A stretch of DNA of 64,000 bases from Norana najaformis (Eukaryota; Annelida; Clitellata; Crassiclitellata; Hormogastridae): assembly GCA_964023275.1 (NCBI GenBank), contig OZ029914.1, forward strand, positions 9,989,561 through 10,053,560, given 5' to 3'. Of the stretch, positions 14,775 to 57,862 are shown in pieces. The notes under the pieces were generated by a model that made no database searches, was not told where the DNA came from, and worked only from the letters and a program-made list of their open reading frames with translations. The first letter of the stretch is position 1; each line of letters starts with the position of its first letter. The translations under genes were made by a program, and so were the position numbers.

Positions 14775-14970
14775 TTAAGTGAAATATAACAAGAGACCAC
14801 ATTAACTTGAAACCCAGATAATATATATATTACTGGTCTGTTAAAAAAAAGGGAAATGGACAACGTTTGTTCTTTCTATGCGATGATTGTCATCTGTAGA
14901 GGCGACTACTAAGTTTCGAAGAAAACGGCTTCCATACTTGTTGAATGGACGACCTTGACAATGCACTTGA

Positions 14971-14973
14971 TGA
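14971..14973. repeat. target-site duplication TGA (left)
   Basis: TGA lies directly before the CACTGG end of transposon 1 and again directly after its other end (17602-17604). Confidence 0.7.
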
Positions 14974-17601: not shown

Positions 17602-17604
17602 TGA
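17602..17604. repeat. target-site duplication TGA (right)
   Basis: Matches 14971-14973 across transposon 1. It merges into the following ATCT microsatellite. Confidence 0.65.
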
Positions 17605-17745
<141 letters not shown>

Positions 17746-17889: not shown

Positions 17890-18238
17890 GTTCCACAGAC
17901 GTTTAATAAATTCGTTACACAATTTGGATACAGTTTTAGTTCAGACGATCGAAACAAAAGCTTCACTAAAACGAAAGAAATCGACTCGTGGATTGACGAT
18001 CTTAGACAAGGAATGGTTAGTTGTGAGTCATTTGAATTCAGAAGTTGAAGTTTACAATTCGATAAAATTCATTTTTAGCGTCAATGGAATTTGAAGGTAA
18101 TTCGTCCAGACCTTGCAACAGAAATAAATGTTTCTACATCTTCGATTACAAAGACTCTTCTGGGAAATCGAATGAAATCTTGAGAGTTGATCCATTTAGA
18201 AAATAAGTAAAGACGTGGTCAACAAAGAGTCGATTATA
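17890..18238 (+). pseudogene. NHL exon relic N2 (truncated)
   Basis: Matches the first third of the NHL exons: LDTVLVQTIETKAS, RGLTILDKEWLVVS and VEVYNSIKFIFS. It then has frameshifts through the region matching GSCNRNKCIYIL, and stops at a LINE near 18245. The 5' border has an extra base relative to the phase-1 start of N1 and N3. No function is likely. Confidence 0.75.
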
Positions 18239-26441: not shown

Positions 26442-26819
26442 GCTCGACAAGGAGAAATTTATTGATTGCATAGGGGACAACATTGTTCTCATCAGACGCG
26501 CATTCACTTGCGACTTTCTAAGTTCGAGAGCAGCTACTGGGCATGTCAAACCAATTCCCAGGATAAGGTCGCATCCTACATACCACAGCTGGCCAAGTAC
26601 AGCCCCGAATACTGGGGGTATCACTTTGTACAGTTGGTGGCCAGAGACACAGCATTGGTGAAGTGGAGGTTCCGTTTACATTACAGGCGATTGAGAAACC
26701 AATCAACTATATGATCTTGCAATTAATGAACTCTGAACGGATTCTGTTCACAATTATGTTGGACATGAACCGAGTGGCGAGACCTTCAACTGTATAAAGC
26801 AAAGTCCAGAATGTAAACC
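26442..26819 (+). pseudogene. GLS: glutaminase gene fragment C
   Basis: Begins inside the helical domain (QLDKEKFIDCI, NIVLIRRAF), has internal deletions after CDF, then SYIPQLAKYSPEYW. The catalytic entry that follows is frameshifted (matching VPFTLQ and KPINY) and damaged around the Ser-x-x-Lys motif. It ends before GTGATG, as in fragments A and B. It is the most decayed of the five copies. Confidence 0.8.
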
Positions 26820-28020
26820 GTGATGGATGAAAATGAAAGTGTAAGAGGCTTTCTCCCAGATGCTTCCCCAGAACTCTCCGAGCGCCACTGCATAAACTTT
26901 ACCTCGCATGAGCAGTCTGATAAATATTCATGATCTCTATGGTTACCTGTTGAATTTCGCTTATCGCGTTTCATGGTACTCAGCACTCTACACAGTTTGT
27001 TAAGAAAACAACTTACAAAGATAGATTAAGAGTATCACACAAACGGTAATATTACACTTTACTCCGTTTAGTAACTTTTATCTTGATTTCTTTTGTAAAG
27101 TGAGTGAATATTTTTGCTTATTTTCTCGAAAGATTCCTGATCCGCTCCAGTGAATTTAGGTCAAGTGATACCTGTATATTGTGGTATTGGGACAAAATGT
27201 TGCCCAAATACTTTTATACACAATGTTTCTATTAACCCAAAGGTCTGGACTCCAAATCCCGTGCAAGAAAAAAAGATATTTCAAGATTTATGTAAGATTA
27301 GAATCTCTAGTAGACTCGGACGTCAAGTGCTGTACTAAACCTAGGCCTATATCTAACCTAACCTTAAACACCAGCCCCTAGCTTTGTGTATCCTATGGTC
27401 GAACGACATGAAAAATTGCAGTTACCTTGCCAGTCAGACATTTCCTGCGAGTGCATTCGAAGTTGATAGCAACAGCCAACACAGAGCTAGCCTATATAGT
27501 CTACTCAAGATTTACTTGGAAATTGACTCGGCCATAGCCTCATGGCCTTGAGCTCGCTTAAATTCGGCCGTTCATAGACAATAAAGACGCTCCCAGACAT
27601 CAAACTGTCTAATGACTAAACAAAGTGATTTGGCCTTTACTTAGAACTGAGTCCTTCCTCTTGAGGTCTACACTTTGGGCAACCCAGACTCTCCGCTGAT
27701 CTATGTTCATCGTCAGTCTTCTTGCCTTATCGACATCTCACATCATCTCTGATGGTCTCCGGTCAGTACATTCTTGGTCTTTCTCGCATTCTTCTCCCTT
27801 TATCGTTCCAATTCATCACTAGGTTGCATCATATATCCTATCCGCTCCAGTCTTCGTTTTCTGAAGATATTCTCATGATCCTCTTGTGCTGTCCTTTCTC
27901 TTACGGTTTACAAGCCAGGGAGACAACATGGTACTAGGGCAGAAATCGTCGGTGAAGGTGCTCATGAGATGGTGCAGGAGGGCATTTAGAAATCTGAAGC
28001 TATCACGTAATAAAATTTGA
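26820..28020. other. duplicated intron-like DNA, no gene
   Basis: 26820-27690 parallels 1739-2600. 27870-28020 parallels 3680-3830. No coding exon is seen. Confidence 0.5.
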
Positions 28021-28035
28021 AGAATTCTAACACAG

Positions 28036-28200
28036 CATTGGAGATGTGAAGGTTCCATTCACACTCCAGTCGAGTGGGAAACCAATCAACTATGCTCTTG
28101 CAATTAATGAACTCGGAGCGGGTTCTGTCCACAATTATGTTGGACATACACAGAACTGCAAGACCTTCAAATGTATCTAGCTGAGCCCAGAAAATAAGTC
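28036..28200 (+). pseudogene. GLS: glutaminase catalytic exon, fragment D
   Basis: A 165-nt exon-shaped piece between ACACAG and GTAATA, encoding IGDVKVPFTLQSSGKPINY with the Ser-x-x-Lys motif. One in-frame TAG (TGT ATC TAG) breaks it. The leader exon of G2 starts 377 bp after its end. Its end phase (2) does not fit the phase-1 CARD exon, so an in-frame fusion is not supported. Confidence 0.85.
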
Positions 28201-28576
28201 GTAATATATGAAATCGAAAGTGGTAAGAGGCTTTTTGCAAGATGCTTACCTACAACTCTCTCTGATCGCCACTGCATAAATTTTAGCTCGCATGAGCAGT
28301 CTCAAATATTCGTGATAGCTCTGGTTAGCTGTGCAATACGGCTTATCGCGTTTCATGGTACTCAGCACTCTACACAGTTTGTTTTAGAAAACAACTTACA
28401 AAGCTTAAGAGTATCACACAAACGGCAATATTACACTTTGCTCGGTTTGGAAACTTTTATCTTGATTTTTTTAAAAATTGAGTGAATATTTTGGCTAATT
28501 TTATCGGACAATTGAATTGCTGGGGAATCTGCGTTGTATTGCAGTTTTGCATCGTACTGTTGGCTGTGTGGAAGAG

Positions 28577-28625
28577 ATGGCAGAAGGTGGTATACAAGAC
28601 TGTCCTCAGGCACCAAGTGAAATAG
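28577..28625 (+). CDS. leader exon of CARD/NHL-family copy G2
   Basis: ATG opens MAEGGIQDCPQAPSEI. A donor after ATAG (GTACAAG) leaves phase 1, which fits the CARD exon at 29647. A second phase-1 donor lies 15 bases later. The start is supported by conservation of the leader in all three copies. Confidence 0.65.
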
Positions 28626-29646
28626 GTACAAGCACTGAAGGTCAATACTGCTGGACATTGTTCATGAAAGTGCTATCTATTTCTTTGACATTATATACTA
28701 GTTGCTAAACAGTGGTTTTCTGTCCTCCATGATTTTTTGGGATTTAATTTGAAGTTCTTGTATATTTGGGCATTAAGTAATGATGTAAAGGTGAGCATGA
28801 TCGACTGCCAATCTAGAGGTCAGAGGTTCAAATTCTCACCAAAGTAGAGTGATGTTTACAGATGTCTGTCCAATTTAGTGCTGAATGTCTTGCAGTTTTC
28901 TTATAGTTCCAAATTCGTTTGATTTCAGTCAGCATACTTTCTCCGGGTTGGAATTGTATATTTGAGTTTGTACATATTTATGTATGCATTTATGTATTTA
29001 TGTATATATGTATGTTTGTGTGTATGTATGTATGTATACACAGAACAGTGATCATTGATCTATATACCAAAAGCCTTAAATTACCTTTAAAATCGGATGT
29101 AGTTGGGATGTTGAGAATTCAACTGAAAGGAAAGATAAGATAAGGCAGAGTAAACATTCCTTTATTAAAAGTGTTTATCAGCTTTAGACCTCAGGGACAT
29201 AGTCTTTAGGTTGAAGGATCCTTTAACTGAAGCATAAACATCAAAATTACCAGATAACCTATTCTTTTCAATTGTCAGTGTCTCTTGAGACATAAGGATT
29301 GGAACTCTTGATGCAAAGGTGACACATTAGCTATCTTCAACTATGCCATCCAAATTGGCAGTAAAGTGCTGCTAGCTATCTGCTTGAAAATAGAAGCAGG
29401 AAAACAGCTTTTAAATAAGAATAATAAATATCAATTCTTTTAACTTCTGCATTAAGATGTAATGGCTCAATATAAATGCATTAAAGTAAAGCTATTTACT
29501 TCCTTACTTTAGAGGTCTATTTTGATCGTCCAAAAATCAGTCTGAAAGTCAGTATACTCGTAGTTACATTTGTATTTGCATGAGATGCAAAGGTGAAATT
29601 AAATTATATTAAATTTTCTGTTTCGTTATCCTACATTGTGTTTTAG
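28626..29646. other. intron 1 of G2
   Basis: No exon. It is almost base-for-base the same as 33703-34724 in G3. It includes a TATG-rich stretch near 28980 and a tRNA-like box-B motif (GGTTCAAATTC) near 28825, also seen in G1 and G3. Confidence 0.6.
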
Positions 29647-29910
29647 GAAATGATGAGGAAAATATGACGAATGTTAGGCATCTGCTTCTTCAGCAAATCG
29701 ATCCGGATTCAGGCCTCGTAGATAAGTTGCTTCAGTTGCGTGCCTTGACTTATCCTGAAACCGTAAAAATTAAAAGCGAAAAGGTAATATTTGATCGGAA
29801 TGAAAAAGTATTGGAGCTAATTTTCAGAGAAAAGAGACACCAGGCCTTGATGACAGCACTGACTGACACAGGGCAGCAACACCTCGTCAACTTCGTGAGA
29901 GGAAATGGAG
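29647..29910 (+). CDS. CARD exon 1 of G2
   Basis: 264 nt between TTTTAG and GTATGC, phase 1 at both ends. It encodes a single six-helix CARD: VRHLLLQQIDPDSGLVDKLL, LRALTYPETVKIKSE, KVLELIFREK, then HQALMTALTDTG and QQHLVNFVRGNG. CARDs bind other CARDs in apoptosis and innate immune signalling, usually linking sensors to caspases or adaptors. The closing TGQQHLVNF is typical of caspase and adaptor CARDs. No transmembrane segment is visible, so a cytosolic protein is likely. Confidence 0.85.
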
Positions 29911-30419
29911 GTATGCTGGTCTTGGTCACTGGAGGTGAAGGACGTGTGCGAGACTGCGGTTTTTCTTATAATGTATGCATGTATGTGAAGATACTTAATT
30001 CAGTGCCTTTCAAATACCTCTCAAAAGGGCCTGAAATTTTAAATAAATTTGTTCAATGTATTGTGATCGAGGTATCCTACGAGTTTATAAGTAGGCTGCG
30101 CATTTGTGTCCTAAAGTCGGAGAAAATTGTCACAGAATGCATGGAATGGGTTTGCAAGATAGTAGGATGTCAGAACAAAGCATGATGAGCATTAAGGTTA
30201 TTTCTCATTGAGAAAGCTTTATCTTATGCATTTTGGCCCTTTTGCCTGTTGGTGTAATATCAGATGTGTAAGTGATGATGGAAGAAGTGATGATTGTTGA
30301 ATTGGTAGGGGTGGTTGTGCGCAATGATAAAACAACAGCAAAACAAAAACAGCAGTAGTTGCAATACTTGTTGCTTCTAGCCTTCCATATCATTCTTTTT
30401 TTTTTTGTTTTTTCCACAG

Positions 30420-30725
30420 TTCATAGACCAGAATATGGCGCAGTTTGGCCACTTCGAGAGAGACAAACAGATATTTTGGATGTGAATCGGTTGAATCTAG
30501 TTCAAGTTATAGATCCATGCGACCTTATTATCGTAATGTTTAGTAAGCGTGTTATCAATGACAGGCAACAGAAGTACATCAGCAGCCTACCCAATGACAC
30601 TGATAAAGCTGAAGCACTGTTGGATATTTTGAGGCGTGGCAGTAAAGAGAATTACTGGAAGACAGTCTTGTGTCTACGCGAGTTAAATCAAGAACACGTT
30701 GAAGAAATTATGGAGGATGGAGGAG
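30420..30725 (+). CDS. CARD exon 2 of G2
   Basis: 306 nt between TTCCACAG and GTTGGT, phase 1 at both ends. It starts with a short linker (VHRPEYGAVWPLRER), then a second CARD: ILDVNRLNLVQVIDPCDL, MFSKRVINDRQQKYI, LPNDTDKAEALLDILRRGS, YWKTVLCLRELNQEHVEEIM. It is only distantly like CARD exon 1, so it is a distinct module and not a recent repeat of it. Confidence 0.8.
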
Positions 30726-30859
30726 GTTGGTTTTACAGGGTTTTATGAAAATGCAGTGTAGCAAACAGGGCACTGCCTAACATATGGATAAAGAAGATGT
30801 GGTAAAATCTGAGAGAAGTAATTTATTATCATTTTTTATTATAATTACTAACTTCTATC

Positions 30860-32060
30860 GCGCCGATGTGTAATGCGCAAATCATCAACCGATGGAGCGC
30901 CAGAACCAAAGCCGCAGTCAGTTCACTATCAAGATCAGTCCATTCAGACAGGGCAGCCTATGATGGATGACCGATATGAAAGAAGTAAGTCTTAATCTAA
31001 GAAGGAAATGACACAAGTAATTCAGCAGCCTGATCAAATGCAGGGAGAGGGTTCCGAAATCTAGGTCCAACAACCAAAAAAGTCCGCCTACCATAAACGG
31101 TTCTAGCTTTATGTATCACCTAAGAAAGACAATCAAACGTCTTCGATGAATAACGGTAAGTCCGGGGAATATGGACTCATTTTATTTATTTTCAAACATT
31201 AAGTATTGTGGTTGGCCAGAGTTCAATGTTTAAAATACTATAAAACCCCAGTTTTAAACAAATCCTTGCTGAAGAGGAAAGCAGTGCAGAGATTTAAGGA
31301 TTTAAGTACAGCGGTTATAGTTTTTATAGATATAGTCAAAGAGTTCTGAACTCTGGAGTTTCTGAGTGTTTGTCTTTAAGATACCAGTAAGAAGTGAGTT
31401 ATAGTAAGCAAGGCTACGCGAGACCCATGTTTCTGCCAGAGATATCCTTGGACATGGGGACATAATGCATAATTCTGCATACATCAAGAAATATTCATGC
31501 ATGACGACTTACAAAAGCCACTTACACCATTGTTGAGAGACATATCTGAATCAAAAACAATGCCAAATTTTGAGCAGAATCAGCCAAATTAACAAGTGAG
31601 TTACCCAGTATTAAAGATTTAAGTCATTCAAACCTCTGAAGTTGCTGTGGAGTGCTCAGTGGTAGAAATACAGTTTCTGACAGGTTAAAGAGGAGTTTAT
31701 TAGATGCCATCTAAGATGCACTTCAACAACAGTGGATAACAGCTGCACAGGACAAACTGTCAAACAAAATGTAGATTTGAGTATTATCAGAATATAAAGG
31801 ATATCCTACTGAATGGTTGTTCAGCAACGTATATAGTGACTTGGTGTATAATTTAAGAAGGGCGGATTCTGTTTAATGAAATCTGCGAAATGTAGAGTTA
31901 AAGAGGATTATTAATGAGGTGAGATAGGTGAGTTTGCATACCATTCATAACTACCCATTCAAAACTTTTAGACACAAAATTCAAAATTGAGATGGGTCTG
32001 AAATTAGACAGGTCGTCGGGATCGAGAGAAGGTTTAGCAGAGAATTAACTATATGGCATG
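30860..32060 (-). mobile_element. LINE relic in G2 intron
   Basis: The minus strand keeps degraded LINE pieces: SRSLAYYNSLLTGI at 31502-31302, and a DPDDLSNFRPIS-like block near 32020-31985. It is a shortened relative of 7620-9290. Confidence 0.6.
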
Positions 32061-32392
32061 AGTAAAAGCATATGGGAAGCATCATTATAAGAAATTTATT
32101 ATTGATGCAATTATTGGACTGTTAGGCACGTGTGGTATGACGACTTCTGATTGTTTACATTATTGTAATGCCATATTTATATCATGATATTATATGGAGA
32201 GTTAAACATTCTAGTCTTCTTGCATGACTGTCCTGAGATATGAATCAATTTGCTGAGCCCGAGGAAGCCGTCAAGTCTAATGACAGTGTGAAATCTTCAT
32301 TTCCATTTATTTTTTAAGCCAGTAAGCCTGTAACTAATTGTAACTAATTGTTGACTATGTGACAATTGTTGATATTAATATTGTTGTTTCAG

Positions 32393-32752
32393 TTTTGGTG
32401 CAGGTGCATGTTTGTAATGAAGGAAATCCCGAACAAATGAATGAGGAGGAAGATCACATGGTTGACGCCTTGGCAAACATACTTCAGAATACAACACTTC
32501 CCCAGTACCTAAGAATAAGGGAGCATTTAGACCTCCGAATAATGCGTGCTAAGAAAGGCCAGAGTATTGTTTTCTTCCTCTACTGCAAGACTCTAAAGGA
32601 GCTTTTGTATCTGTATGAGTTGCTGACGAAAGGAGAGTTCAAGAAAAATATTGCAATAGTCTTCGATCTGTTGATTACCAGAAGAGAAACAAGAGTATCG
32701 ACAGTGAATTGGTCAGAAGAGGAGTTCACAAAAGCCAGGACATACTTTGAGA
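32393..32752 (+). CDS. alpha/beta death-adaptor-like exon T2 of G2
   Basis: 360 nt between TTTCAG and GTAAGT, phase 1 at both ends. Core motifs are LRIMRAKKGQSIVFFLYCKT, LKELLYLYELLTKGEFKKN, VFDLLITRRETRVSTV and NWSEEEFTKARTYF. See exon T1 for the structure argument. No NHL exon follows before the next leader exon, so G2 must end differently or splice onward into G3. Confidence 0.75.
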
Positions 32753-32999
32753 GTAAGTTTTCTCTGTCGTTTTCGGTTTCACAGGCTGCAATTAGATTGA
32801 AAACCACTTTTGGGAAACTTTGATGCTTGTGTTATCTGAAACTATAAAAAGTCAGTTTCATATAGACCTATTGTTCTCATATGTCTATCTGGCGAGTATC
32901 ATCACAATAACCGGATATAAGTCGGTTTGATTGAGAATTCCTAATACTCTACAATATAGTGGCATCAGTTTTTGATACAAAATACGGAAGTATTTTAAA

Positions 33000-33040
33000 T
33001 TAGTTGCCGGATTTGTTTTTATCGACGGTGAAGGTGCTCT
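33000..33040. other. rearrangement junction at about 33020
   Basis: Up to about 33020 the sequence follows the intron that precedes NHL exon N1 (CATCAGTTTTTGATACAAAA, then GGTTTTG-like). It stops a dozen bases short of the splice acceptor. From there it follows the sequence upstream of glutaminase fragment D (GGTGAAGGTGCTC...GAGATGGTGCAGG). The join deletes the NHL exon of G2. Confidence 0.75.
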
Positions 33041-33111
33041 TGAGATGGTGCAGGAGGGCATTTCGAAATCTGAAGCTATCAAGTAATAAAATTTGAAGAA
33101 CTCTAACACAG

Positions 33112-33276
33112 CATTGGAGATGTGAAGGTTCCATTCACACTCCAGTCGAGTGGGAAACCAATCAACTATGCTCTTGCAATTAATGAACTCGGAGCGGGTT
33201 CTGTCCACAATTATGTTGGACATACACAGAACTGCGAGACCTTCAAATGTATCAAGCTGAGCCCAGAAAATAAGCC
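33112..33276 (+). pseudogene. GLS: glutaminase catalytic exon, fragment E (open)
   Basis: The twin of fragment D, without the TAG: an open 165-nt exon ending SPENKP before GTAATA. It carries the Ser-x-x-Lys motif (LQSSGKPINY) but stands alone, without the helical domain or the remaining catalytic exons. It ends 377 bp before the leader exon of G3. Confidence 0.85.
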
Positions 33277-33653
33277 GTAATATATGAAATCGAAAGTGGT
33301 AAGAGGCTTTTTGCCAGATGCTTACCTACAACTCTCTCTGATCGCCACTGCATAAATTTTAGCTCGCATGAGCAGTCTCAAATATTCGTGATAGCTCTGG
33401 TTAGCTGTGCAATATGGCTTATCGCGTTTCATGGTACTCAGCACTCTACACAGTTTGTTTTAGAAAACAACTTACAAAGCTTAAGAGTATCACACAAACG
33501 GCAATATTACACTTTGCTCGGTTTGGAAACTTTTATCTTGATTTTTTTTGTAAATTGAGTGAATATTTTGGCTAATTTTATCGGACGATTAAATTGTTGG
33601 GGAATCTGCGTTGTATTACAATTTTGCATCGTACTGTTGGCTGTGTGGAAGAG

Positions 33654-33702
33654 ATGGCAGAAGGTGATAAACAAGACTGTCCTCAGGCACCAAGTGAAAT
33701 AG
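33654..33702 (+). CDS. leader exon of G3
   Basis: ATG opens MAEGDKQDCPQAPSEI. The donor ATAG before GTATAAG is the best of the three copies. The alternative downstream donor of G1 and G2 is lost here (GAAGTTC), which favours the first donor for the family. Confidence 0.65.
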
Positions 33703-34724
33703 GTATAAGCGCTGAAGTTCAATACTGCTGGACATTGTTCATGAAAGTGCTATCTATTTCTTTGACATTAAATACTAGTTGCTAAACAGTGGTTTTCTGT
33801 CCTCCATGATTTTTTGGGATTTAATTTGAAGTTCTTGTATATTTGGGCATTAAGTAATGATGTAAAGGTGAGCATGATCGACTGCCAATCTAGAGGTCAG
33901 AGGTCCAAATTCTCACCAAAGTAGAGTGATGTTTACAGATGTCTGTCCAATTTAGTGCTTAATGTCTTGCAGTTTTCTTATAGTTCTAAATTCGTTTGAT
34001 TTCAGTCAGCATACTTTCTCCGGGTTGGAATTGTATATTTGAGTTTGTACATATTTATGTATGCATTTATGTATTTATGTATATATGTATGTTTGTGTGT
34101 ATGTATGTATGTATACACAGAACAGTGATCATTGATCTATATACCAAAAGCCTTAAATTACCTTTAAAATCGGATGTAGTTGGGATGTTGAGAATTCAAC
34201 TGAAAAGAAAGATAAGATAAGGCAGAGTAAACATTCCTTTATTAAAAGTGTTTATCAGCTTTAGACCTCAGGGACATAGTCTTTAGGTTGAAGGATCCTT
34301 TAGCTGAAGCATAAACATCAAAATTACCAGATAACCTATTCTTTTCAATTGTCAGTGTCTCTTGAGACATAAGGATTGGAACTCTTGATGCAAAGGTGAC
34401 ACATTAGCTATCTTCAAACTATGCCATCCAAATTGGCAGTAAAGTGCTGCTAGCTATCTGCTTGAAAATAGAAGCAGGAAAACAGCTTTTAAATAAGAAT
34501 AATAAGTTTCAATTCTTTTAACTTCAGCATTAAAATGTAATGGCTCAATATAAATGCATTAATGTAAAGCTATTTACTTCCTTACTTTAAAGGTTTATTT
34601 TGATCGTCCAAAAATCAGTCTGAAAGTCAGTATACTTGTAGTTACATTTGTATTTGTATGAGATGCAAAGGTGAAATTAAATTATATTAAATTTTCTGTT
34701 TCGTTATCCTACATTGTGTTTTAG

Positions 34725-34988
34725 GAAATGATGAGGAAAATATGACGAATGTTAGGCATCTGCTTCTTCAGCAAATCGATCCGGATTCAGGCCTCGTAGA
34801 TAAGTTGCTTCAGTTGCGTGCCTTGACTTATCCTGAAACCGTAAAAATTAAAAGCGAAAATGTAATATTTGATCGGAATGAAAAAGTATTGGAGCTAATT
34901 TTCAGAGAAAAGAGACACCAGGCCTTGATGACAGCACTGACTGACACAGGGCAGCAACACCTCGTCAACTTCGTGAGAGGAAATGGAG
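34725..34988 (+). CDS. CARD exon 1 of G3
   Basis: Differs from its G2 twin by only one visible residue (Lys to Asn in KSENVIF). Same length, same splice borders and same phase. The intron before it is also nearly identical, pointing to a very recent duplication or gene conversion. Confidence 0.85.
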
Positions 34989-35178
34989 GTATGCTGGTCT
35001 TGGTCACTGGAGGTGAAGGACGTGTGCGAGACTGCGGTTTTTCTTATAATGTATGCATGTATGTGAAGATACTTAATTCAGTGCCTTTCAAATACCTCTC
35101 AAAAGGGCCTGATATTTTAAATAAATTTGTTCAATGTATTGTGATCGAGGCATCCTACGAGTTTATAAGTAGGATGTA

Positions 35179-35345
35179 CTGGCGGCTCCAGGACTCTTTG
35201 CATGGAAGGGCAAGAGCATTTCCAGAGGGGCGCCACATTCGGCAGTCCACCATGCAGGCGTATATCTTGAGGGGCTCAGGCATGTAACCAAGAGGACTGC
35301 TTGGGGGAACCCCTCCCCCACGTCTATAGCCAAATCCGCCACTGG
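35179..35345. mobile_element. MITE-like insertion with 9-bp target duplication
   Basis: TAGGATGTA occurs at 35170-35178 and 35346-35354 around a 167-bp insert. The insert's ends are CTGGCGGCTCC and, inverted, CCAGTGGCGGATT, so TGGCGG forms a short terminal inverted repeat. The G2 intron lacks the insert but also lacks about 90 bp beside it. Long target duplication and GTGGCGG ends suggest a hAT- or P-like non-autonomous element. Confidence 0.65.
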
Positions 35346-35768
35346 TAGGATGTACATTTAGTGTGCTTCTCAGAACTGGCAACTGTGATTGAGAGTATCA
35401 GTGGTTTTCAAGATTTCTTATCCCAGAATGGTATTTTGCTACAGCTGCACATTTGTGTCCTAAAGTCGGAGAAAATTTTCACAGAATGCATGGAATGGGT
35501 TTGCAAGATAGTAGGATGTCAGAACAAAGCATGATGAGCATTAAGGTTATTTCTCATTGAGAAAGCCTTGTCTTGTGCATTTTGGCCCTTTTGCCTGTGG
35601 GGGTAATCAGATGTGTAACTGATGGTGGAAGAAGTGATGATTGTTGATTTGGTAGGGGTGGTTGTGTGCAATGATAAAACAACAGCAAAACAAAAACAAC
35701 AGTAGTTGCAATACTTGTTGCTTCTAGCCTTCCATATCATTCTATTTTTTTTTTTGTTTTTTCCACAG

Positions 35769-36074
35769 TTCATAGACCAGAATATGGCGCAGTTTGGCCA
35801 CTTCGAGAGAGACAAACAGATATTTTGGATGTGAATCGGTTGAATCTAGTTGAAGTTATAGATCCATGCGACCTTATTACCAGAATGTTTAGTAAGAGTG
35901 TTCTCAATGACAGGCAACAGAAGTTCATCAGCAGCCTACCCAATGACACTGATAAAGCTGGAGCACTGTTGGATATTTTGAGGCGTGGCAGTGAAGAGAA
36001 TTACTGGAAGACAGTCGCGTGTCTTCGTGAGTCAAATCAAGAACACGTTGCAGAAATTCTAAAGCATGGAGGAG
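35769..36074 (+). CDS. CARD exon 2 of G3
   Basis: 306 nt, phase 1 at both ends. Sequence ILDVNRLNLVEVIDPCDL, MFSKSVLNDRQQKFI, LPNDTDKAGALLDILRRGS, YWKTVACLRESNQEHVAEIL. It shows clearly more replacements from its G2 twin than CARD exon 1 does (about a dozen against one), so the two exons have diverged at different rates or one was homogenised. Confidence 0.8.
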
Positions 36075-36539
36075 GTTGGTTTTACAGGGTTTTATGAAAA
36101 TGCAGTGCCAGTTTTTCCACTGCAGAAAAATTCTGACTCCAGTTGAGTATCTCCTGTTAACAGGAGGTCCCATGCAATTGCCTATATTGCACACTGGTTA
36201 ATCCATCTTTGTCCATACTCTCTGAAGGTGCAGTGTAAGGCAATTGCGTTGAAATACTAAATAGTTAATGATAGGTTAAGCTTTGAAATAGAGATCGATA
36301 CTAGAATATCAATAATAGCTACATTCCAGGCCGACTATAGTTACCCCTCCTAAATGTAAATGTACGCGTTTTCATATAGCGACAGTACGGCCTTGGTTTT
36401 AATAAAGAGATTACCTTGCACATTAGCGGGATGGAAAATATCTGCTGGATGGCCAATATGCACATATAATAATAAGTGATAATAATTTTGCAACTTCTAA
36501 TGCGCCGATACGAGAATAACATCTGTCACCCTACTCTTA

Positions 36540-36760
36540 TTCATAGAACACATGATGTCATTATAATGTAATTATTACCAGCAACAAGGGCGGATTCTGT
36601 TTAATGAAACCTACGACATGTATAGTTAAAGGGGAATATTAATGAGGTGAGATTGGTGAGTTTGCATACAATTCATAACTACCCATTCAAGAATTTTAAA
36701 TAAAAAAACCAAACTTGAGATGGATTTTAAATTAGACAGGTCGCCGGGGTCGAGAGAAGG
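36540..36760 (-). mobile_element. LINE relic in G3 intron
   Basis: Short remnant of the same reverse transcriptase N-terminal block (DPDDLSNF-like on the minus strand) as at 9055-9290 and 31855-32060. Confidence 0.55.
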
Positions 36761-37132
36761 TTTTGAGAACTATGGCATGAGTAAACGCAGATGGGAAGGA
36801 TCATTATGATAAATTTATTATTGATGTAATTATTTAACTATTAGGTACGTGTGGTATGACGACTTCTGATTGTTTACATTATTGTAATACCATATTATAT
36901 CATGATATTATTTGGATAGTTAAACATTCTAGTCTTCTTGTATGCCTGTTCTGAGATATGAACAATCTGCTGATCTCGTGCAAGCTGTCAAGTCTAGTGA
37001 CCGTGTGAATCTTCATTTTCCATTTATGTTTAAGCCAGTAAGAATTTTAGCCTCTGCAACTGTGCCATTCCATTATACCATCTGTCCATTGTAACTATGT
37101 GACAATTCCTGATATTAATATTCTTGTTTCAG

Positions 37133-37492
37133 TTTTGGTACAAGTGCATGTTTCTAATGAGGAAGATCCTGAACAAGTGAATGAGGAGGAAGACAACATT
37201 GTTGAAGCCTTGGTTAATGTACTTCAGAACACAACACTTCCCCAGTACCAAAGAATAAGAGAGCGTTTAGACCTGCGAATAATGCGAGCTAAGAAGAGCC
37301 AGAGTATTGTTTTCTTCCTCTACTGCAAGACTCTAAAGGAGCTTTTGTATCTGTATGAGTTGCTGACGAAAGGAGAGTTCAAGAAAAATATTGCAATAGT
37401 CTTCGATCTGTTGATTACCAGAAGAAAAACAAGAGTATCGACAGTGAAATGGTCAGAAGAAGAGTTCACAAAAGCCAAGACAAACTTTGAGA
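37133..37492 (+). CDS. alpha/beta death-adaptor-like exon T3 of G3
   Basis: 360 nt, phase 1 at both ends, open. Reads VSNEEDPEQVNEEEDNIVEA, LQNTTLPQYQRIRERLDLRI, SQSIVFFLYCKT, LKELLYLYELLTKGEFKKNI, VKWSEEEFTKAKTNF. The central part (SIVFF to TRRKTRVSTV) is the same in all three copies, while the N-terminal acidic segment varies. Confidence 0.78.
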
Positions 37493-37729
37493 GTAAGTTT
37501 TCTCTGTCGCTTTCAGTTTCGCAGGTTGCAGTAGATTGGAAAATACTTTTGGGAAACTTTGTTGATTGTATTATCTGAAACTGTAGCAGTCAGTTTCATA
37601 TATTGTTCTCGCATATTTATATATCTTCACACTAAAAATAACAATATGGGTTAGGCCTAAATTTTCACAGGTCAGGAGTGCATATGCTGTTATCTTACTA
37701 CATTTTGCATCATCTTTATATTGAGTAAT

Positions 37730-37965
37730 AATAACAATAAATAAATATTAATAACAATTACAAAACAACAATAAAAACAACAGCAACAACAACAAAACAA
37801 CAATAAATAATAATAATAGTAATAATAATAATAATAATAGCAATGACAACAAGAATAAGAAGAAGAAAAAGAAGGCGAAGGAGAAGAAAGCGGAGAAGTA
37901 CAGGAAGAAGGAAGTGAAGGAGGAGGAGGAGTAGAAGAAGAAGGAGAAGAAGAAGAATTTGTGAA
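37730..37965. repeat. low-complexity AAC/AAT then GAA/GGA-rich tract
   Basis: Purine-rich simple sequence running up to the left end of transposon 2. The Ser/Pro/Tyr-rich reverse-strand frame here is an artefact of it. Confidence 0.9.
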
Positions 37966-38002
37966 AATCCTGAGGGACCTTTCTAGTTCAGAAACAAAAT
38001 AA

Positions 38003-40608
38003 CACTGGCCAACAGAGAAATTTTTTTTTCTTGTTGCCTTCGGTTTTAGACCTGTTCTTGGGGTAATTTTTGGCGCTGATTCAGAAAATGTCATTGGATT
38101 GAGTGCATCAGGTCTAGTTTCTGAGATATCGTCGATTTTGTAAAGAAAACCCAGTCCACTCTTTAAACGATGTCTTTGGCAAAACTAAAATGTCATAATA
38201 AGCTTTATTTATGGCTAATTATAATTCTTGCTGATTCATATAATGCCTACATCCTTATAATGTAAAATCAGCATATCTTGCCGCGTGCTGAGATATTGCT
38301 GATTCAACGAAATAACTATTCCGTAGCCTACAGCTTACTCAGCACTAAATTGATGGCCTCATTTAGAATTTATATGTGCTTATACAGCGTTTCATGGTTT
38401 CGAACTATGTAAATAGATTATGCTGAAGTCAGCATTTATAGCCTATATAAACCGCCTCCTGAAAGCTAGAGCAGCCGCAGTCCGTCTTAGGGCATATTAA
38501 GAGTTTGGTCGCAAGAACAATCTGTGAATGTGAGCATTAAATAACTACATGTTCTTACTATTTTTTAGGTTAGTCATTTTAATTCCTCAGATGCGAACAT
38601 CCTTAAGGTTATGGCTACTTCCAGACGGAGCTGCATTAACCATCCAGACATATTCTGCTACATTTGTGGGGGAATACACACTAAAAGCAAACAGGAAACC
38701 GATTTCTGAGTTTGTAAAAAGAGCATATGTAGGTTATTTTGGTGTCAAACTTGGAGATCAAGATAAGCAATGGGCTCCTCATACAGTATGCAAAACTTGT
38801 ATTGAACAATTGCGCCACTGGACAATTGGAAAGATAAGCTGCCTGAAATTTGGTGTACCGATGGTTTGGAGGGAACAGATAAACCACTTGGACGACTGTT
38901 ACTTTTGTATGGTTAATATCATAGGCATCATCGAAATAATCGTCACAAGTTGTCTTACCCTGATATACCTTCAGCCAGGAGACCTGATTCCGCATTCGGA
39001 TATTGTACCAGTTCCACCTTTTTGCGAACTACCTCAGCTCTCAGACGATGACACTTGCATGTCCAATATCGGACAAGATGACGAAAGTGAAGAAAGTGGG
39101 GGGCAGTGACAGTGATTTCCAATCAACTTCACACAGTGAACGTTTTGACCAAAAAGAGTTGAGTGATCTGATCAGGGACTTAAATCTTTCCAAAGAGTCC
39201 TCTGAATTGCTTGCGTCCAGACTAAAGAAAAAGAATGCACTTCAGCCTGGAACGAAAATTACAATTTATAGAAACAGAGAAAAGGATTTGCTGCCATTCT
39301 TTACCGAAGACAACAACCTAGTATTCTGTAATGACATCAGCAACTTATTGAAGAAAATTGGTCTGTCGGATTACAGCCCAGATGAGTGGCGTCTTTTTAT
39401 CGACAGTTGAAAACGTAGTCTGAAATGTGTGCTTTTAAATAACGGCAACAAATTTGGTTCTATTCCAAATCGGTCACTCCACCAGGATGAAAGAAGAGTA
39501 CAATGCCATCTCTTTAGTACTGGAAAAGATAAAATACAAAGAACATCAATGGGTAATTTGTGTAGACTTGAAGATGGTAAATTTCCTCTTTGGTCAACAA
39601 AGTGGCTACACAAAGTATCCCTGCTTTTTGTGTCTTTGGGACAGTAGAGCCAAGGCATGAACATTGGACAAGAAAAGATTGGCCTTCGAGGAAAGACATG
39701 GTGGTTGGAGCTCAAAATGTAATCAAGAAATCTTTGGTGGCACGAGATAGGATCATACTGCCACCACTACATATAAAGGTAGGCCTGATGAAACAATTTG
39801 TCAGGGCTTTGAATAAAGAAGGTTCATGCTTCGAATACATAGTACACAAGTTACCAGGAATTACAATGGAAAAATTGAAGGCTGGAATCTTCGATGGTCC
39901 ACAGATCAGGCAACTTATGAATGACCCACTTTTCATACCATCAATGAATGAAATCGAATCTTGTGCCTGGTCTTCCTTTGTTCTTGTAACTAAAAATTTT
40001 CTTGGCAACAAGAAGGCAGACAATTATGCACAACTAGTAGAGGATATGCTTCTTCATTTCAACAAGCTTGGCTGCAACATGAGCATTAAAGTCCATTATC
40101 TCCACAGGTCACTTAGATCGCTTTTCCAGAGAATCTTGGTGACTTCAGCGAAGAGCAAGGTGAAAGATTTCACCAAGACATCAAAACAATGGAAAATCGA
40201 TATCAAGGAAGATGGGATGCACGCATGATGGCAGACTATTGCTGGAATATTATGCGCGATTGTTCCGGCAGATGCCACACTCGGAAATCGTACAAAAGGA
40301 GCTTCTTCGGTGTCGAATGACTTGAAATTTTTATAACAAACTTGTTCTGTTTGGTATCATATAAGTGCAGTTTCAGGTACTACCATTTTCTTTTAAGTAT
40401 TTGTATTATTATGTTTATTTAGTGTATCACATAATAAATTGAGCACTACATAATTATAGCTATAGCCTTATGTTTTATGGGCGAGCAGAGGCAAGGACTG
40501 GTATATGGCATAATGTTCTATATCTCGAAAACTAGACCTGCTGGGAGAAAACTGGTGCCTTTTCTGGAATCAGCAGGTCAAATATACCCAGAAACAGTTC
40601 TAACATTT
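38003..40608 (+). mobile_element. CACTG-terminated DNA transposon, copy 2 (right end missing)
   Basis: The left end begins CACTGGCCAACAG and the whole length matches copy 1 almost base for base up to ACATTTGA near 40610. There the last 28 or so bases of the element, with the inverted repeat, are absent. The 12 bases GAAACAAAATAA occur just left of the element (37991-38002) and at the truncated right edge (40609-40620). The flanks differ from those of copy 1, so this was a separate insertion. It lies in the last intron of G3, in the same orientation. Confidence 0.88.
38611..40320 (+). pseudogene. broken transposase of copy 2
   Basis: Same protein as in copy 1 but interrupted by many single-base insertions or deletions (for example in TGTGGGGGAATAC, ATCATCGAAAT, GGGGGGCAG, CCAAATCGG, GCCAAGGCATG, CACAGGTCAC). 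It also has a stop at FIDS (GACAGTTGA), next to the proposed first catalytic Asp. It cannot encode a full protein as written. Confidence 0.85.
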
Positions 40609-41021
40609 GAAACAAAATAATTAACACCTTTGCTTTCTGTGGCATTTTGCTCTACTGGATCTTGGTAAACTATAACCATTCAGCAATTTTCTGTTCTCCA
40701 AAGAACTGTTTGGCTCATGAAGTATCTTTTCTACCCCGGAGAAAAATAATACTTTACTCTTAATCTGATTTGCTACAAAATTTTATTCGCGGTCTCATAA
40801 CAAAGCTTTATCGACTGCATTTTGATAGGCTCTTTTCCGCCACAAAGCAGAACAGTTCAGACAGGTCTGAACCAGTCCTTGACTCTTCACAACGTACGTG
40901 CTGATTGGTTCCCACAGTTTAACGACATCTCCTGGCATAAAAGGCCGTTGACGTGGCCCTCCTGCTTTATTCAGGCTTGGGACTAGCAATACCCGACTAA
41001 AGGCAGTGGCGGAGTAACACC

Positions 41022-41089
41022 GTACGGGCGTCGTTCCCGTACGGGCGTCGTTCCCATAAGGGCGTCGTTCCCGTACGGGCGTCGTTCCC
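41022..41089. repeat. 17-bp minisatellite, four units
   Basis: Units GTACGGGCGTCGTTCCC, repeated four times with only the third altered (ATAAGGGCG...). The parallel place in G1 (about 10832-10870) has about two diverged units. Confidence 0.9.
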
Positions 41090-41139
41090 AGACACTTTAA
41101 TGTTTATTTTAAGCGCGAGATACAGCCGTATGCGTACGG

Positions 41140-41860
41140 GGTTTAATCAAGGGCATGAGACGTATTTCACCAATATTGCATTCATTACATTGGTTGCCAG
41201 TCGAGCAAAGAATCCAGTTTAAAATCTGTCTTAAAGTTCGCACAGGACTACATTTAAATCAGCCGACCTATCTCTCTTGCATGCTGAATAGTCGTAACAA
41301 CAAATATTGCACTCGATCAATTGACGCTACGATTCTCGGCATTTGCTGCCAAGTTCTAGTTGTTGTGTCAGATCTGTTATATCATTCAGATCTAAACTTA
41401 TGACTTTTTTTCAACTTACTTACCCGCCGTTGCCAATAGTTTCTGGTATCTCTGACCTATCAGAATTCCGCTTGCTTCTCCAATATATTATGATCTTGAA
41501 TTCGGTGCCTTAAGCATTATGTTAATAATCCGATCTATATCCCACGCATGCACTGCTCCTTGACTTTGGTACGATCTCCCACATAAAACTGCCATCCAAA
41601 ATTAATTCCCACTTTCCAAGAAATCTTACTATGATCCATCCACTCCGCCTTCTTCCCATTTATGTCAACCTAAACTAACACACTGCGACAGTTACTCTTT
41701 CTCCTCTCTCTAGACTTCTGTGGCAATCACAATTTGTTTTTCATACGGTGTCTTTGACCAACACCTCTAATATGACGCAGCGATCTCGAATAAGTTGGTG
41801 CTGGCACTAAGCTTTAAGTAGCGTTTTAGAAATGTTTGAATTTATGTCTACGATTTTTAT
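41140..41860 (+). mobile_element. LINE C-terminal fragment (paralogue of 10900-11640)
   Basis: Contains LHSLHWLPVEQRIQFKICLKV and HLNQPTYLSCML. It is the same insertion as in G1, carried along by duplication. Confidence 0.7.
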
Positions 41861-41929
41861 GCACAGTAACGTCAACAAAGGTTACGATGACAACAAAAAC
41901 TGATTTAGCGAATTAAAAAATGTTGATGC

Positions 41930-42125
41930 TGATGATGAATTCCCTGCCCGAAGGTAGGTCTATGCCACAAGGGGGTGGATGGTTGAGGTGGTTTCCCGTT
42001 GCCTTCCTTGCAGACAATTGTGGTGAGCAACTTGTTCAAGGTCGCTACTTAGTGTCTTGAGGCAGATTCGAACCCCCGACCCTCCAGTTACAAAGCACAG
42101 AACATACCGCTACACCACCGCATTC
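41930..42125 (-). repeat. tRNA-derived SINE (paralogue of 11730-11935)
   Basis: On the minus strand it has a tRNA-like head with a GGTGTAGCGG D arm, an anticodon loop TTTGTAA and box B GGGTTCGAATC, plus the shared body. Confidence 0.55.
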
Positions 42126-43218
42126 AGCCAATTAAATTTAAATAGCAAATTAACGAGTTACACTAACATTGTGTAGTAGTTCGATTTACCGCCAGTTGAT
42201 CGCCGATTTTCTGAGAAGAACAGATGCAAGAAACTTGAAATATCCTCTTTTACAAATGAGTTCTTAGTGAATAGCAGATCGAAGAGCAATAATGTTCGAT
42301 AATATATATTCGTTGCGTTCATGACCAAAGATAGTGAAACCTTGAGAAGATTAGTCCGTCGTTGACTAAGTCGGCATAGGAAGAGGTGGCGATATTTAAG
42401 CCGTATTATATTCAGCTTCTGACTGCTTGAGTGAGATGATCATCTTAATGACATTGCAATACTAGCTGTTCGATGAAGTCTGTTTGCATTGTCAAAGACT
42501 TTCGATCTTGTGTATGAAGAATATATAGTATTATGTCACGTGCACGTTTTCAATTGGTGTTTCTTTGCGGAAAAACTCAGAACTTTTAAGCTGGATGAAT
42601 TGTTTTACGGGTTGCGATACGTGGGCTCTTCTAGTTCTATGAAAATGAAGTCATAGGCTACTTGTGGTTAATGTTTTAACCATTTTGCATCCAAACTATT
42701 TTTTGGTCAACTAAATATAATAAAATCAGTTGAAATTGTACAGCCTAACATTGTACTGTGGTTACATCTTATCTCATACAGTTTACTAATGACTTAGTAT
42801 CCTAATATCCAAGTACAAATCTCCGAAATTATTGGACCCTATTGCCATTGATAAAACGTGTTTCAGTTCAACAGTAGTTCCCAGCGGAGACGTAGTTCTG
42901 AAAGATTATGTTATCTTGTTTTGTTTACAAACTGTCAAGTGCGCGAGGATGACATGTGCTGCAAGTGCATTTGCATGAACCAATAATTAGATTCACAATT
43001 AAGCTCGTTACAAAATTTGAGGCTTCAGTTATGGAGATATGCAGTGCCCCTTGTTTAGTTTTATGCTACAATTTTTCTTCAAAAAACGTCATCGGATCAG
43101 TAATATAATGCATTTCTCTTGTGGACTGACCTAATTGTGGCTTGGCTTTGCTGTGCCAGTGCTTGATACAAAATATGGAAATAATTAAATTTCTTAACGG
43201 CTTTGTTTTTATTTGCAG
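42126..43218. other. last intron of G3, duplicated sequence
   Basis: Collinear with 11936-13030 of G1. No exon. It ends in a good acceptor (TTTTTATTTGCAG). Confidence 0.55.
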
Positions 43219-44123
43219 CGAAACTTCTTTACAAATTGGATCCAGTTTTAGTTCAGACGATCAAAACAAAAACCTCAGAAGAAGAAAAACGGATCTGTGC
43301 ATTGACGATCTTAGACAAAGAATTGTTTGTTGTGAGTTTCAGAAGTTCAAAAGTTGAAGTTTACGATTCGGTGAAATTCAGTTTCAGTCGTCGATGGAAT
43401 TTGAAGGAATTAATTGATCCTTGGGACATAGGATCCTGCAACAAAAATAAATGTCTCTACATCTTGGCTGACAAAAGCCACTTTCGGTCACAGGAAATTT
43501 TGAGAGTTGATCCGAATGGAAAATTAATAAGCAAATGGTCAACAGGAGAAAAATATTCGGGTTGGAGTTTGTCTGTCACGGATGAATCAAATGTCATTTT
43601 TACTGTTTATGATAAAAAAACATTAAATGAATATTCACCAGATGGACAATTGATCCGTGAAATAAATCTAGCACACGCAGGTATTTATGGTCCACGCCAT
43701 GCTATAAAACTGACCAATGGTCATTTCGTGGTCATTGATGGCAAATCATTTTTGGCTAGGTCAGTTGGGCCGCCGATTGAGCCGACTGTTTGTGTAGTGG
43801 ATGGAGATGGAAAACTTAAGAAGTCATTCGGTGAAGAACTAGGATCGACCATTGGACAAATGAATCATCCAGGCTATTTGGCCGTCGATGGAAGTGGATT
43901 TGTGATGGTCGCTGATGAGGAGAACAGACGAGTTTTGTTACTGGATTCAGATTTGCAATTTCAGAGAGAAATTCTCACAAAAGAAAAACTCGGATTGCGA
44001 CTTCCAAGGAGGATTCTTCTGGATCAGACAAATAATCGACTGTTTGTGGCTGACAGGGGACAATGGGACTATAAGAAGCACATTTACAAAGATACACAAA
44101 TCTTGATTTTTGAGTTTAGATAA
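43219..44123 (+). CDS. NHL beta-propeller terminal exon N3 of G3 (intact)
   Basis: 905 nt from the acceptor to TAA, open throughout, starting in phase 1. It encodes about 300 residues: a leader helix (KLLYKLDPVLVQTIK), then propeller blades with repeats such as ILRVDPNGKLISKWSTG, LNEYSPDGQLIREI, CVVDGDGKLKKSFG, YLAVDGSGFVMVADEENRRV and ILLDQTNNRLFVADRG. It closes with ILIFEFR, which probably completes the first blade. The PxxLAVDxxGxVxVADxxNxRV pattern is the NHL signature. It is the only one of four NHL exons in the window without damage. Confidence 0.88.
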
Positions 44124-46440: not shown

Positions 46441-47312
46441 ATAAACTTCGAAGTGTATATGAATCGGATCCAGTTTTAGTTCAGACGATCGGAACAAAAG
46501 CCGCTGAAGAGGAAAAGAAATCGATCGTTGGATTGACGATCTTAGACAAAGAATTGTTTGTTGTGAGTCGATGGAGTTCAGAAGTTGAAGTTTACGATTC
46601 AGTGAAGTTTAGTTTCACTTGTCAATGGAATTTGAAGGAATTTATTCACCCGGAAGACATAGGATCCTGCAACTGAAATAAATGTCTCAACATCAGAAAT
46701 TACGACGACCAACAGAAGTCGAGTGAAATCTTGAGAGTTAATTCAAATGGAAAATTAATAAACAAATGGTCAACTGGAGACGATTCGGGATGCGGTCTGT
46801 CTGTTACAGAAGAATCGAATGTCATTTTCACTGTTTTTACTAAAGACAAATTAAATGAATATTCATCAGATGGACATTTGATTCGTGATATAAAACTATC
46901 ATCAGATGCCGGTGTTCTTCATCCATGGCATGCTATAAAACTGACTAATGGTAATTTCGTGGTCAGTCATGGCTTTGATGATGATGATGATCTGCACAGA
47001 GTGTGTGTAGTGGATGCAGATGGAAGATTTCAGAAGTCATTCGGTGGAAAACGTGGATCGACCATTGCACAGATGTATTGTCCTGCCTCTTTGGCCGTCG
47101 ATCGAAATGGGTTGGTGATGGTTGCTGAGCGAGGAAACAGTCGAGTTTTGTTACTGGATTCAGATTTGGAATTTAAGAGAGTAATTCTCTCAGAAGAGAA
47201 ACACGGATTACGACGTCCACTAAGGATTCTTCTGGATCAGACAAATAATCGACTGTTTGTGACTGACAATAAAACGGACAATGAGCGGATTTTGATTTTT
47301 GAATTTAGATAA
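46441..47312 (+). pseudogene. NHL beta-propeller exon N4 (one in-frame stop)
   Basis: Begins after TTTTCAG in phase 1 (AT AAA CTT CGA...) and runs to TAA after ILIFEFR. One in-frame TGA (46674-46676, at GSCN-stop) precedes a clean frame from 46731. Propeller repeats are clear: YCPASLAVDRNGLVMVAERGNSR-type, split as LAVDRNGLVMVAERGNSRV and ILLDQTNNRLFVTDN. An Asp-rich stretch (GFDDDDDLH) is specific to this copy. No leader, CARD or T exon is seen for it nearby. Confidence 0.85.
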
Positions 47313-57600: not shown

Positions 57601-57604
57601 AGTA

Positions 57605-57862
57605 ATGAAGAAGAGATTCGAGCAGCACAGGGAATATCTGGTGAATCGAATTTATCCGGATTTGGGGCTGTTAGATAAGTTACTGACCTGCAGGACATTG
57701 ACGAGAGAAGCCCTGCATATGATCAAGCTCAAAGACAACACAACCGAGGATAAAAATAGGATACTTCTTGATTTTATACTAAAGAACAAAAAGGCTAAGC
57801 AATTGGTTACGGGTTTTTCAATAAAAACTGAAAACACTCCTCTACCACAGATCCTTTCCTGA
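57605..57862 (+). pseudogene. stray CARD fragment
   Basis: ATG opens FEQHREYLVNRIYPDLGLLD, KLLTCRTLTREALHMIK, NRILLDFILKNKKAKQLVTG. This is the first four to five helices of a CARD, related to CARD exon 1 of G2 and G3 at the family level only. The sixth helix (the HLVNF part) is missing, and a dispersed repeat begins near 57880. It could be the first exon of another CARD gene or a relic. No splice donor in the right place is evident. Confidence 0.6.

Follow-up and report, generated by a model that had tools for sequence, protein, structure and literature searches.

A predicted CARD-CARD-alpha/beta-NHL gene of Norana najaformis and its expanded family of phase-1 exon modules

Introduction

Whether a run of exons encoding two CARDs, a small alpha/beta domain and an NHL propeller can belong to one gene, and what its protein might do, is the question raised by a 64,000-nt stretch of the genome of the annelid Norana najaformis. 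This stretch, hereafter the window, covers positions 9989561 to 10053560 of contig OZ029914.1 (C2) in the 608-Mb, 17-contig assembly GCA_964023275.1 (G000); positions given without a contig are counted from its first letter. The original prediction, made from the letters alone, had described here a tandem gene family built from phase-1 exons, including a five-exon gene of 1884 nt, G3. Our analysis suggests that the members of the G3 family are probably intracellular innate immune sensors, in which a diversified propeller would be coupled to a CARD output by genes composed of phase-1 exons.

Results

Gene model and domains of G3

The five exons of G3 lie on the plus strand and carry one domain each: a 49-nt leader with the ATG, ending in phase 1 (33654-33702), CARD1 (34725-34988, 264 nt), CARD2 (35769-36074, 306 nt), an alpha/beta domain of no named family (37133-37492, 360 nt), and a six-bladed NHL propeller with the stop codon (43219-44123, 905 nt). 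The exons sum to 1884 nt including the stop, the frame has no internal stop, and every intron is bounded by GT-AG and placed in phase 1, after the first base of a codon, which confirmed the proposed five-exon structure. The domains named in the original prediction were recovered as well. Against the Pfam CARD model (PF00619; cut-off, 23.9 bits), CARD1 and CARD2 scored 24.0 and 33.0 bits when trimmed to the exon, and 22.0 (below the cut-off) and 31.7 bits (above it) as longer whole open reading frames (ORFs). The NHL exon scored 21.5 bits against the Pfam NHL model (cut-off, 20) and matched TRIM71 in phmmer (E 2.5e-19). Its predicted fold (pLDDT 85), modelled by our own strand assignment as six four-strand blades, the last of which is completed by the first strand, gave Foldseek matches with E as low as 1.3e-15 to solved TRIM-type NHL domains, those of Thin, TRIM71, TRIM2/3 and Brat. 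Neither a RING, B-box or filamin domain nor an NB-ARC or NACHT ATPase, helicase or LRR was detected in the ORFs of the G3 exons by Pfam at E<=1.

A genome-wide family with conserved exon order and phase

Using the alpha/beta exon of G3 as query (E<=1e-3; 98 of 98 candidates scored), we identified 74 matches in the genome including G3 itself, none of which contained a stop. For the CARD exons, 150 of 258 CARD2 and 150 of 192 CARD1 candidates were scored, and the counts are therefore lower bounds: at least 127 CARD2 matches (four with stops, by our own count) and at least 114 CARD1 matches (none with stops). The alpha/beta exons are distributed over 12 of the 17 contigs, chiefly C2, C8 and C11, and their surroundings are strongly ordered. 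A CARD2-like exon precedes 71 of the 74 by no more than 10 kb on the same strand, and 59 of these by at most 1.4 kb, as against nine exons with one downstream and a single exon with one on the opposite strand; CARD1 and CARD2 stand in order upstream of 68. One of the three alpha/beta exons lacking an upstream CARD2 belongs to G1, another copy in the window. PF00619 matched all 15 CARD1 exons (best E 1.1e-11) and all 19 CARD2 exons (best E 1.3e-10) scanned at E<=0.1, two of 17 CARD1 exons having been left out as partial (L029) or as a near copy (L033).

The phase of the exon borders was surveyed at 20 of the 71 alpha/beta loci outside the window, which yielded 15 CARD1, 17 CARD2 and 20 alpha/beta exons; for each exon, the three top-ranked candidate splice sites close to the conserved end were considered. 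A phase-1 GT was found in 14 of 15 CARD1, 17 of 17 CARD2 and 20 of 20 alpha/beta exons, at an offset that was nearly always identical. A phase-1 AG was present in all 17 CARD2 and all 20 alpha/beta exons (in a few it was not the top candidate), and the CARD1 acceptors were not uniformly resolved among the 15 exons read. Since these exons share 29-48% identity with those of G3, the retention of phase-1 borders implied conservation rather than coincidence, and the genome-wide recurrence of both exon order and phase-1 borders exceeds what chance would give. The family layout predicted from these exons is thus a leader, CARD1, CARD2 and alpha/beta, followed by a variable C-terminal part. At G3 and two or more further C2 loci, this part appears to be a TRIM-type NHL propeller that belongs to a very large array. 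Among paralogue pairs with dS of 0.05-1, which are not independent of one another, the median dN/dS was 0.41 for CARD1 (27 of 136 pairs), 0.28 for CARD2 (49 of 171) and 0.46 for alpha/beta (91 of 253).

A second centre of CARD exons is located on C8 at about 0.1-12.5 Mb, with at least 39 CARD1 and at least 48 CARD2 matches together with TRIM exons; none of the 131 NHL exons scored in the search described below lies there. One CARD1 match of this contig (C8:12451085) falls within a 1068-aa open frame.

One-sided diversification of the propeller

To compare the propellers, 20 intact NHL exons were aligned, consisting of G3 and 19 genome copies, 12 of the latter hand-picked among stop-free matches; a near copy (L015, of L011) and the broken or partial exons of G1, of the 46-kb and 18-kb positions of the window, and of locus L043 were left out. 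Regions were taken from the strands of the predicted model, with loops BC and DA forming the top face and loops AB and CD the bottom face in the usual naming. The results showed that dN/dS reached 0.92 in the top-face loops (95% interval, 0.72-1.21; 97 codons), as against 0.38 in the bottom-face loops (0.26-0.57; 50 codons) and 0.39 in the strands (0.30-0.49; 145 codons), and none of 10000 label permutations attained the observed top-bottom difference in nonsynonymous change. In a held-out test, in which the 30 most variable sites were chosen in half of the sequences and tested in the rest, ten times over and with two near-duplicates dropped, these sites gave a mean dN/dS of 1.27 (0.93-1.85), compared with 0.43 at the remaining sites. 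The 40 most variable positions are spread over all six blades, mostly in the BC loops and close to the DA-to-A turn; Trp, Tyr, His and Arg are over-represented at variable positions, and loop BC4 is strongly variable in length. We know of no earlier description of one-sided diversification in an NHL array. The original prediction had proposed that the protein is a sensor or scaffold, fronted by a death fold and ending in a propeller; the anatomy held, and of the two functions the one-sided diversification favours the sensor.

The same face admits another interpretation, namely a developmental one in which the propellers recognise endogenous RNAs or proteins, as in Brat, TRIM71 and Mei-P26, and the copy number reflects germline or regulatory conflict. 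The nearest solved folds are indeed TRIM-type NHL domains, several of them from RNA-binding developmental regulators, and PMC9070667 describes the top surface as the one by which known NHL proteins bind RNA. However, many divergent copies and a diversified binding face do not resemble what is seen in conserved developmental regulators. CARDs, moreover, signal in death and immunity in established systems, and we consider a developmental role quite improbable.

The NHL array, TRIM exons and the alpha/beta-NHL join

The search with the NHL exon of G3 gave 830 first-look candidates, of which 131 were scored. All 131 fall within the 3.99-18.26 Mb interval of C2, six of them with stops by our own count, and in 20 of 20 NHL exons read the phase-1 acceptor was the best candidate. 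With the RING/B-box exon of the window (60621-61757, plus strand, TRIM-type, ending in phase 1) as query, 108 of 512 candidates were scored; they lie mostly on C2 and C8, and 14 contain stops, again by our own count. Around the 43 scored TRIM exons of C2 between 7.4 and 13.9 Mb, a scored NHL exon lies within 15 kb on the same strand, downstream in 28 and upstream in 23, and never on the opposite strand, which is the layout that interleaved TRIM-NHL genes would give, single-gene pairing being unproven. An example is the NHL match at C2:10056442-10057281, beyond the window and about 5.1 kb downstream of its TRIM exon.

The order seen in G3 recurs elsewhere on C2. At 5.324-5.334 Mb, CARD1 (5324242), CARD2 (5326938), alpha/beta (5327574) and NHL (5333060) follow one another on one strand, with a gap of 5.1 kb between alpha/beta and NHL; reading of the latter two exons showed open frames and, for NHL, a phase-1 acceptor, and the CARDs are known as matches only. 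At L043, CARD1, CARD2 and alpha/beta are followed after 4.9 kb by an NHL exon that was only partly read. That alpha/beta is spliced to NHL in G3 is a model, which rests on these three loci and on phase and frame.

Another arrangement would be that the CARD-CARD-alpha/beta genes and the NHL exons are separate neighbours, with the NHL exon at 43219 belonging to a TRIM-NHL gene or being an orphan. No NHL exon is in reach at most CARD-CARD-alpha/beta loci, either among the loci read or in the scored list; in G3 the NHL exon stands about 5.7 kb from alpha/beta across an intron that carries a transposon copy; and NHL exons are normally found behind TRIM exons, an order that the scored lists favour mildly. 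Nevertheless, frame and phase fit exactly between alpha/beta and NHL in G3, the window yielded no TRIM exon other than that at 60621, the arrangement recurs at C2:5.33 Mb and L043, and none of the 21 alpha/beta exons of C2 has a scored NHL exon upstream within 6 kb. Two separate genes are on this evidence rather unlikely, and the single G3 gene remains our working model.

In the alpha/beta tree, the C2 5.3-Mb group is separate (support 100/100), and the window group lies nearer to genes of C17 and C8 (89/68 and 89/83), near which no NHL exon was found in the stretches read. A concatenated tree joined the window group with C17 (83/78), a join flagged as a possible long-branch effect, and the tree of the NHL exons is nearly a star. 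This pattern suggests, and does not prove, that NHL propellers were joined to the CARD front more than once; loss elsewhere is the alternative. A related layout was noticed on the minus strand of C2 at 10.36-10.77 Mb, where four NHL exons have a CARD1 and CARD2 pair 4.6-12.4 kb upstream and no alpha/beta match at any of the four loci; these are possible CARD-CARD-NHL genes.

The alpha/beta domain and its relation to TRADD-N

The 23 alpha/beta members compared share E19, A52, S57, C64, L70 and L73, and G55 is nearly always present (at least 90%). The predicted order of secondary structures is beta-alpha-beta-beta-alpha-beta at a pLDDT of only 59, and fold searches with this low-confidence model gave no clear match. 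TRADD-N has an RRM-like fold with a tiny residue and a Ser (uS) in the beta2-beta3 turn, according to PMC8195603. The strand order predicted for alpha/beta would agree with that fold, at the low confidence of the model, and Ser57, invariant in the 23 members, is located near the conserved Ser of TRADD-N, in the form of G-x-S and not G-S, with one residue in between.

TRADD_N, which the original prediction had suggested searching for, was not recovered in the alpha/beta domain. The Pfam models TRADD_N, NCOA6_TRADD-N and TRADD-like_N (PF09034, PF13820 and PF20694) all missed the domain, with no match in the 23 members at E<=10; at the same threshold the genome gave six PF13820, five PF20694 and six PF09034 hits, none among the 74 alpha/beta exons, and five hits of PF13820 and two of PF20694 passed the cut-offs elsewhere in the genome. 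Profile comparison by hhalign of alpha/beta with TRADD and with the NCOA6 TRADD-N gave probabilities below 1%, a result that was uninformative, since the positive control NCOA6-TRADD failed too, and the pairwise alignment with TRADD was no better than shuffles. We give the alpha/beta domain no name, and it may be remotely related to TRADD-N.

As a separate observation, the NCOA6_TRADD-N model matched above its cut-off in long open frames at C1:38529738, C3:6286413, C10:8476285, C2:21908412 and C14:6503081, and these five matches exceed the single NCOA6 orthologue expected.

Other copies, duplication and constraint in the window

The original prediction had noted copies of G3 that lack parts, namely G1 without CARDs, G2 without NHL, and stray NHL and CARD exons, and all of these were seen, each on the plus strand. 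G2 consists of a leader (28577-28625), CARD1 (29647-29910), CARD2 (30420-30725) and alpha/beta (32393-32752), and no NHL exon was found between its alpha/beta exon and the leader of G3. G1 has a leader (6228-6276), an alpha/beta exon (9595-9954) with no CARD exon found between the two, and an NHL exon (13875-14774) whose frame is shifted between about 14386 and 14451. The strays comprise a degenerate NHL fragment (17900-18230), an NHL exon (46441-47312) whose acceptor is in phase 1 and which carries a single in-frame TGA at 46674, and a partial CARD1-like ORF (57599-57859). The TRIM exon at 60621-61757 is the only one detected in the window.

Comparison of the window with itself revealed a tandem duplication of about 5 kb on the plus strand, the upstream copy of which (27945-32864, from a remnant of a glutaminase exon to the alpha/beta exon) holds G2, and the downstream copy (33021-37602) the front part of G3. 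The blocks 27945-30095 and 33021-35173 are 98% identical, 30095-30758 and 35444-36107 95%, and 31855-32864 and 36583-37602 87%, and the similarity stops just past the alpha/beta exon of G2. The simplest reason for the missing NHL exon of G2 is thus that the duplication ends there. Glutaminase pieces occur at 1049-1540, 1570-2050, 5500-5853, 26647-27135, 28034-28506 and 33112-33590; Pfam matched EF-hand_14, which we take to be a mark of kidney-type glutaminase, in the first exon and Glutaminase in that at 5500-5853. A remnant resembling the latter sits before each of the leaders of G1, G2 and G3, which implied that the leader was duplicated along with a glutaminase gene fragment.

A transposon-like element of about 2.6 kb is present at 14970-17587 and 37999-40623 (98.5% identical), the latter copy inside the intron that separates alpha/beta from NHL in G3, and similar ORFs were recognised by eye at 53252-54813 on the minus strand. 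The first copy starts with CACTGGCCAACA and has the inverted repeat of this sequence at its end, and the encoded protein has a weak zf-AD match below the cut-off. Long simple repeats with TA and CTAT units were also noted at 645-1065 and 17600-17740.

These features raise the possibility of a decaying tandem array, in which G1, G2 and the strays would be pseudogenes and G3 a functionless lucky survivor. The frameshift in the NHL exon of G1, the stop in the 46.4-kb NHL exon, the degenerate 18-kb NHL and 57.6-kb CARD copies, the recent 98% duplication and the unconstrained CARD2 of G2 and G3 all fit such decay. On the other side, almost all relatives found in the genome have open frames and are under constraint, and constraint is visible in alpha/beta copies of the window itself. 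By Nei-Gojobori counts, dN/dS between alpha/beta exons was 0.28 for G1-G2 (p 0.0025) and 0.30 for G2-G3 (p 0.003), the third pair, G1-G3, giving 0.50 (p 0.23). The alpha/beta exons are also less diverged than their flanking introns in G2-G3 (8.1% vs 14.3%, p 0.003) and G1-G3 (5.6% vs 12.6%, p 0.004), with 8.1% vs 9.8% in G1-G2 (p 0.42). Between G2 and G3, CARD1 differs by 0.4% (1 of 264 positions) vs 2.0% in the intron (p 0.08), and CARD2 by 6.2% vs 3.4% (p 0.10). The 46-kb NHL exon gave a dN/dS of 0.60 against G3 (p 0.005) and of 0.64 (p 0.07) and 0.53 (p 0.035) against the two parts of the G1 exon. In a neutral simulation with substitutions and indels, a simple model, the NHL exon of G3 stayed open in just 0.2% of runs (6% with substitutions alone). 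That G3 is merely a survivor of decay is therefore very improbable.

The original prediction had further read the window as domain loss, gain and shuffling made frame-safe by symmetric modules. The frame-safe part agrees with the phase-1 rule found in the genome copies read, and the presence of the NHL array among both CARD-CARD-alpha/beta and TRIM exons fits shuffling. The window alone does not show it: the absence of NHL from G2 is most simply explained by the end of the tandem duplication and the strays are mostly decaying copies, so that loss and decay account for the exon pattern here as well as shuffling.

Discussion

The results point to a family of genes in which G3, if transcribed and spliced as modelled, would encode a protein with two CARDs at the front and a propeller at the back, and an immune sensor remains the function we consider probable. 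In the mechanism that we propose, the top face of the NHL propeller (loops DA and BC), diversified between copies, would read a ligand, and ligand binding would cluster the protein molecules. The paired CARDs could then seed a CARD assembly and thereby recruit an effector with a CARD of its own, such as a caspase or an adaptor of the MAVS or BCL10 type, by analogy with RLR and Apaf-1 signalling, and the alpha/beta domain might act as a bridge or switch. Since the modules begin and end in phase 1, one pool of propellers could be joined either to the CARD front or to the ubiquitin-ligase front of TRIM proteins. We tentatively put forward, as somewhat less than an even prospect, a germline-encoded combinatorial repertoire, in which interchangeable NHL heads shared by shuffling would sit on TRIM or CARD outputs with alpha/beta as the coupler.

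Several observations weigh against this interpretation. The interval of the top-face loops spans 1 and the range of the held-out sites is 0.93-1.85, so that relaxed constraint is also possible; in addition, the NHL pairs are non-independent and the 20 exons were selected as intact. The TRIM-to-NHL order is favoured only mildly, with a scored NHL exon within 8 kb downstream of 24 of the 43 TRIM exons and upstream of 15. A scored NHL exon follows within 6 kb on the same strand at only two of the 21 alpha/beta exons of C2, which suggests that most members have another or an unseen C-terminus; within 12 kb there are three, the third being G2 with the NHL exon of G3, and L043 adds one pair beyond the scored list. 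In the window, CARD2 of G2 and G3 has a dN/dS of 1.8 (p 0.38), with no constraint seen, and the 5' part of the NHL exon of G1 gave 0.70 against G3 (p 0.22). The NHL exons of G1 and G3 diverge by 17.4% vs 12.3% in the upstream intron block, opposite to what constraint would produce (p 0.0004). The 2-kb block preceding these exons (10833-12896 and 41054-43101) is 84% identical by BLAST, and its lower divergence possibly reflects gene conversion or unequal histories.

Expanded proteins of marine invertebrates that combine a death fold, TRADD-N and a beta-propeller were reported by Kaur et al. (2021; PMC8195603), and the theme of death fold, bridge and propeller is thus already published. The proteins of that paper resemble the G3 family in lineage-specific expansion, variable C-terminal domains and association with transposons, and in having a death-fold front, a small alpha/beta bridge and a propeller back, such as the DED-TRADD-N-WD40 proteins of Branchiostoma. 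G3 differs from them in carrying two CARDs instead of a DED and NHL instead of WD40, and in an alpha/beta domain missed by the TRADD-N models; the word NHL is absent from the main text of PMC8195603. The TRIM-NHL E3 ligases (TRIM2, TRIM3, TRIM71, Brat, Mei-P26, Thin) share the NHL fold and sequence, and NHL exons of the same family are intermixed with TRIM exons in the neighbouring array, whereas the front of G3 is CARD-CARD-alpha/beta and RING, B-box and filamin were not found in its exons.

Other systems are similar in parts. Apaf-1 and CED-4 have a CARD at the front, and in Apaf-1 the sensor is a propeller at the rear, but G3 has NHL in place of WD40, two CARDs, and no NB-ARC ATPase found in its exons. 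RIG-I, MDA5 and NOD2 likewise use an adjacent pair of CARDs as output module, whereas no helicase, NACHT or LRR was found in the exons of G3. The finTRIM and vertebrate TRIM B30.2/SPRY repertoires show tandem TRIM expansion and a fast-evolving C-terminal recognition domain, SPRY-TRIMs being amplified in fishes according to PMC3503706; the variable domain here is instead an NHL propeller, which is also found behind CARDs. The CARD-CARD-alpha/beta-NHL combination was not named in the titles searched in the open-licence literature, which does not prove its absence.

Expanded receptor repertoires that need no somatic recombination are known for NLR, SRCR, FREP and B30.2-TRIM proteins, and they are thought to let animals without antibodies recognise many threats. 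The alpha/beta domain, which is conserved across 74 exons and has no Pfam match, could be a new signalling domain. If an NHL repertoire diversified on one face indeed stands behind both ubiquitin-ligase and paired-CARD fronts, it would add a further recognition fold to such repertoires.

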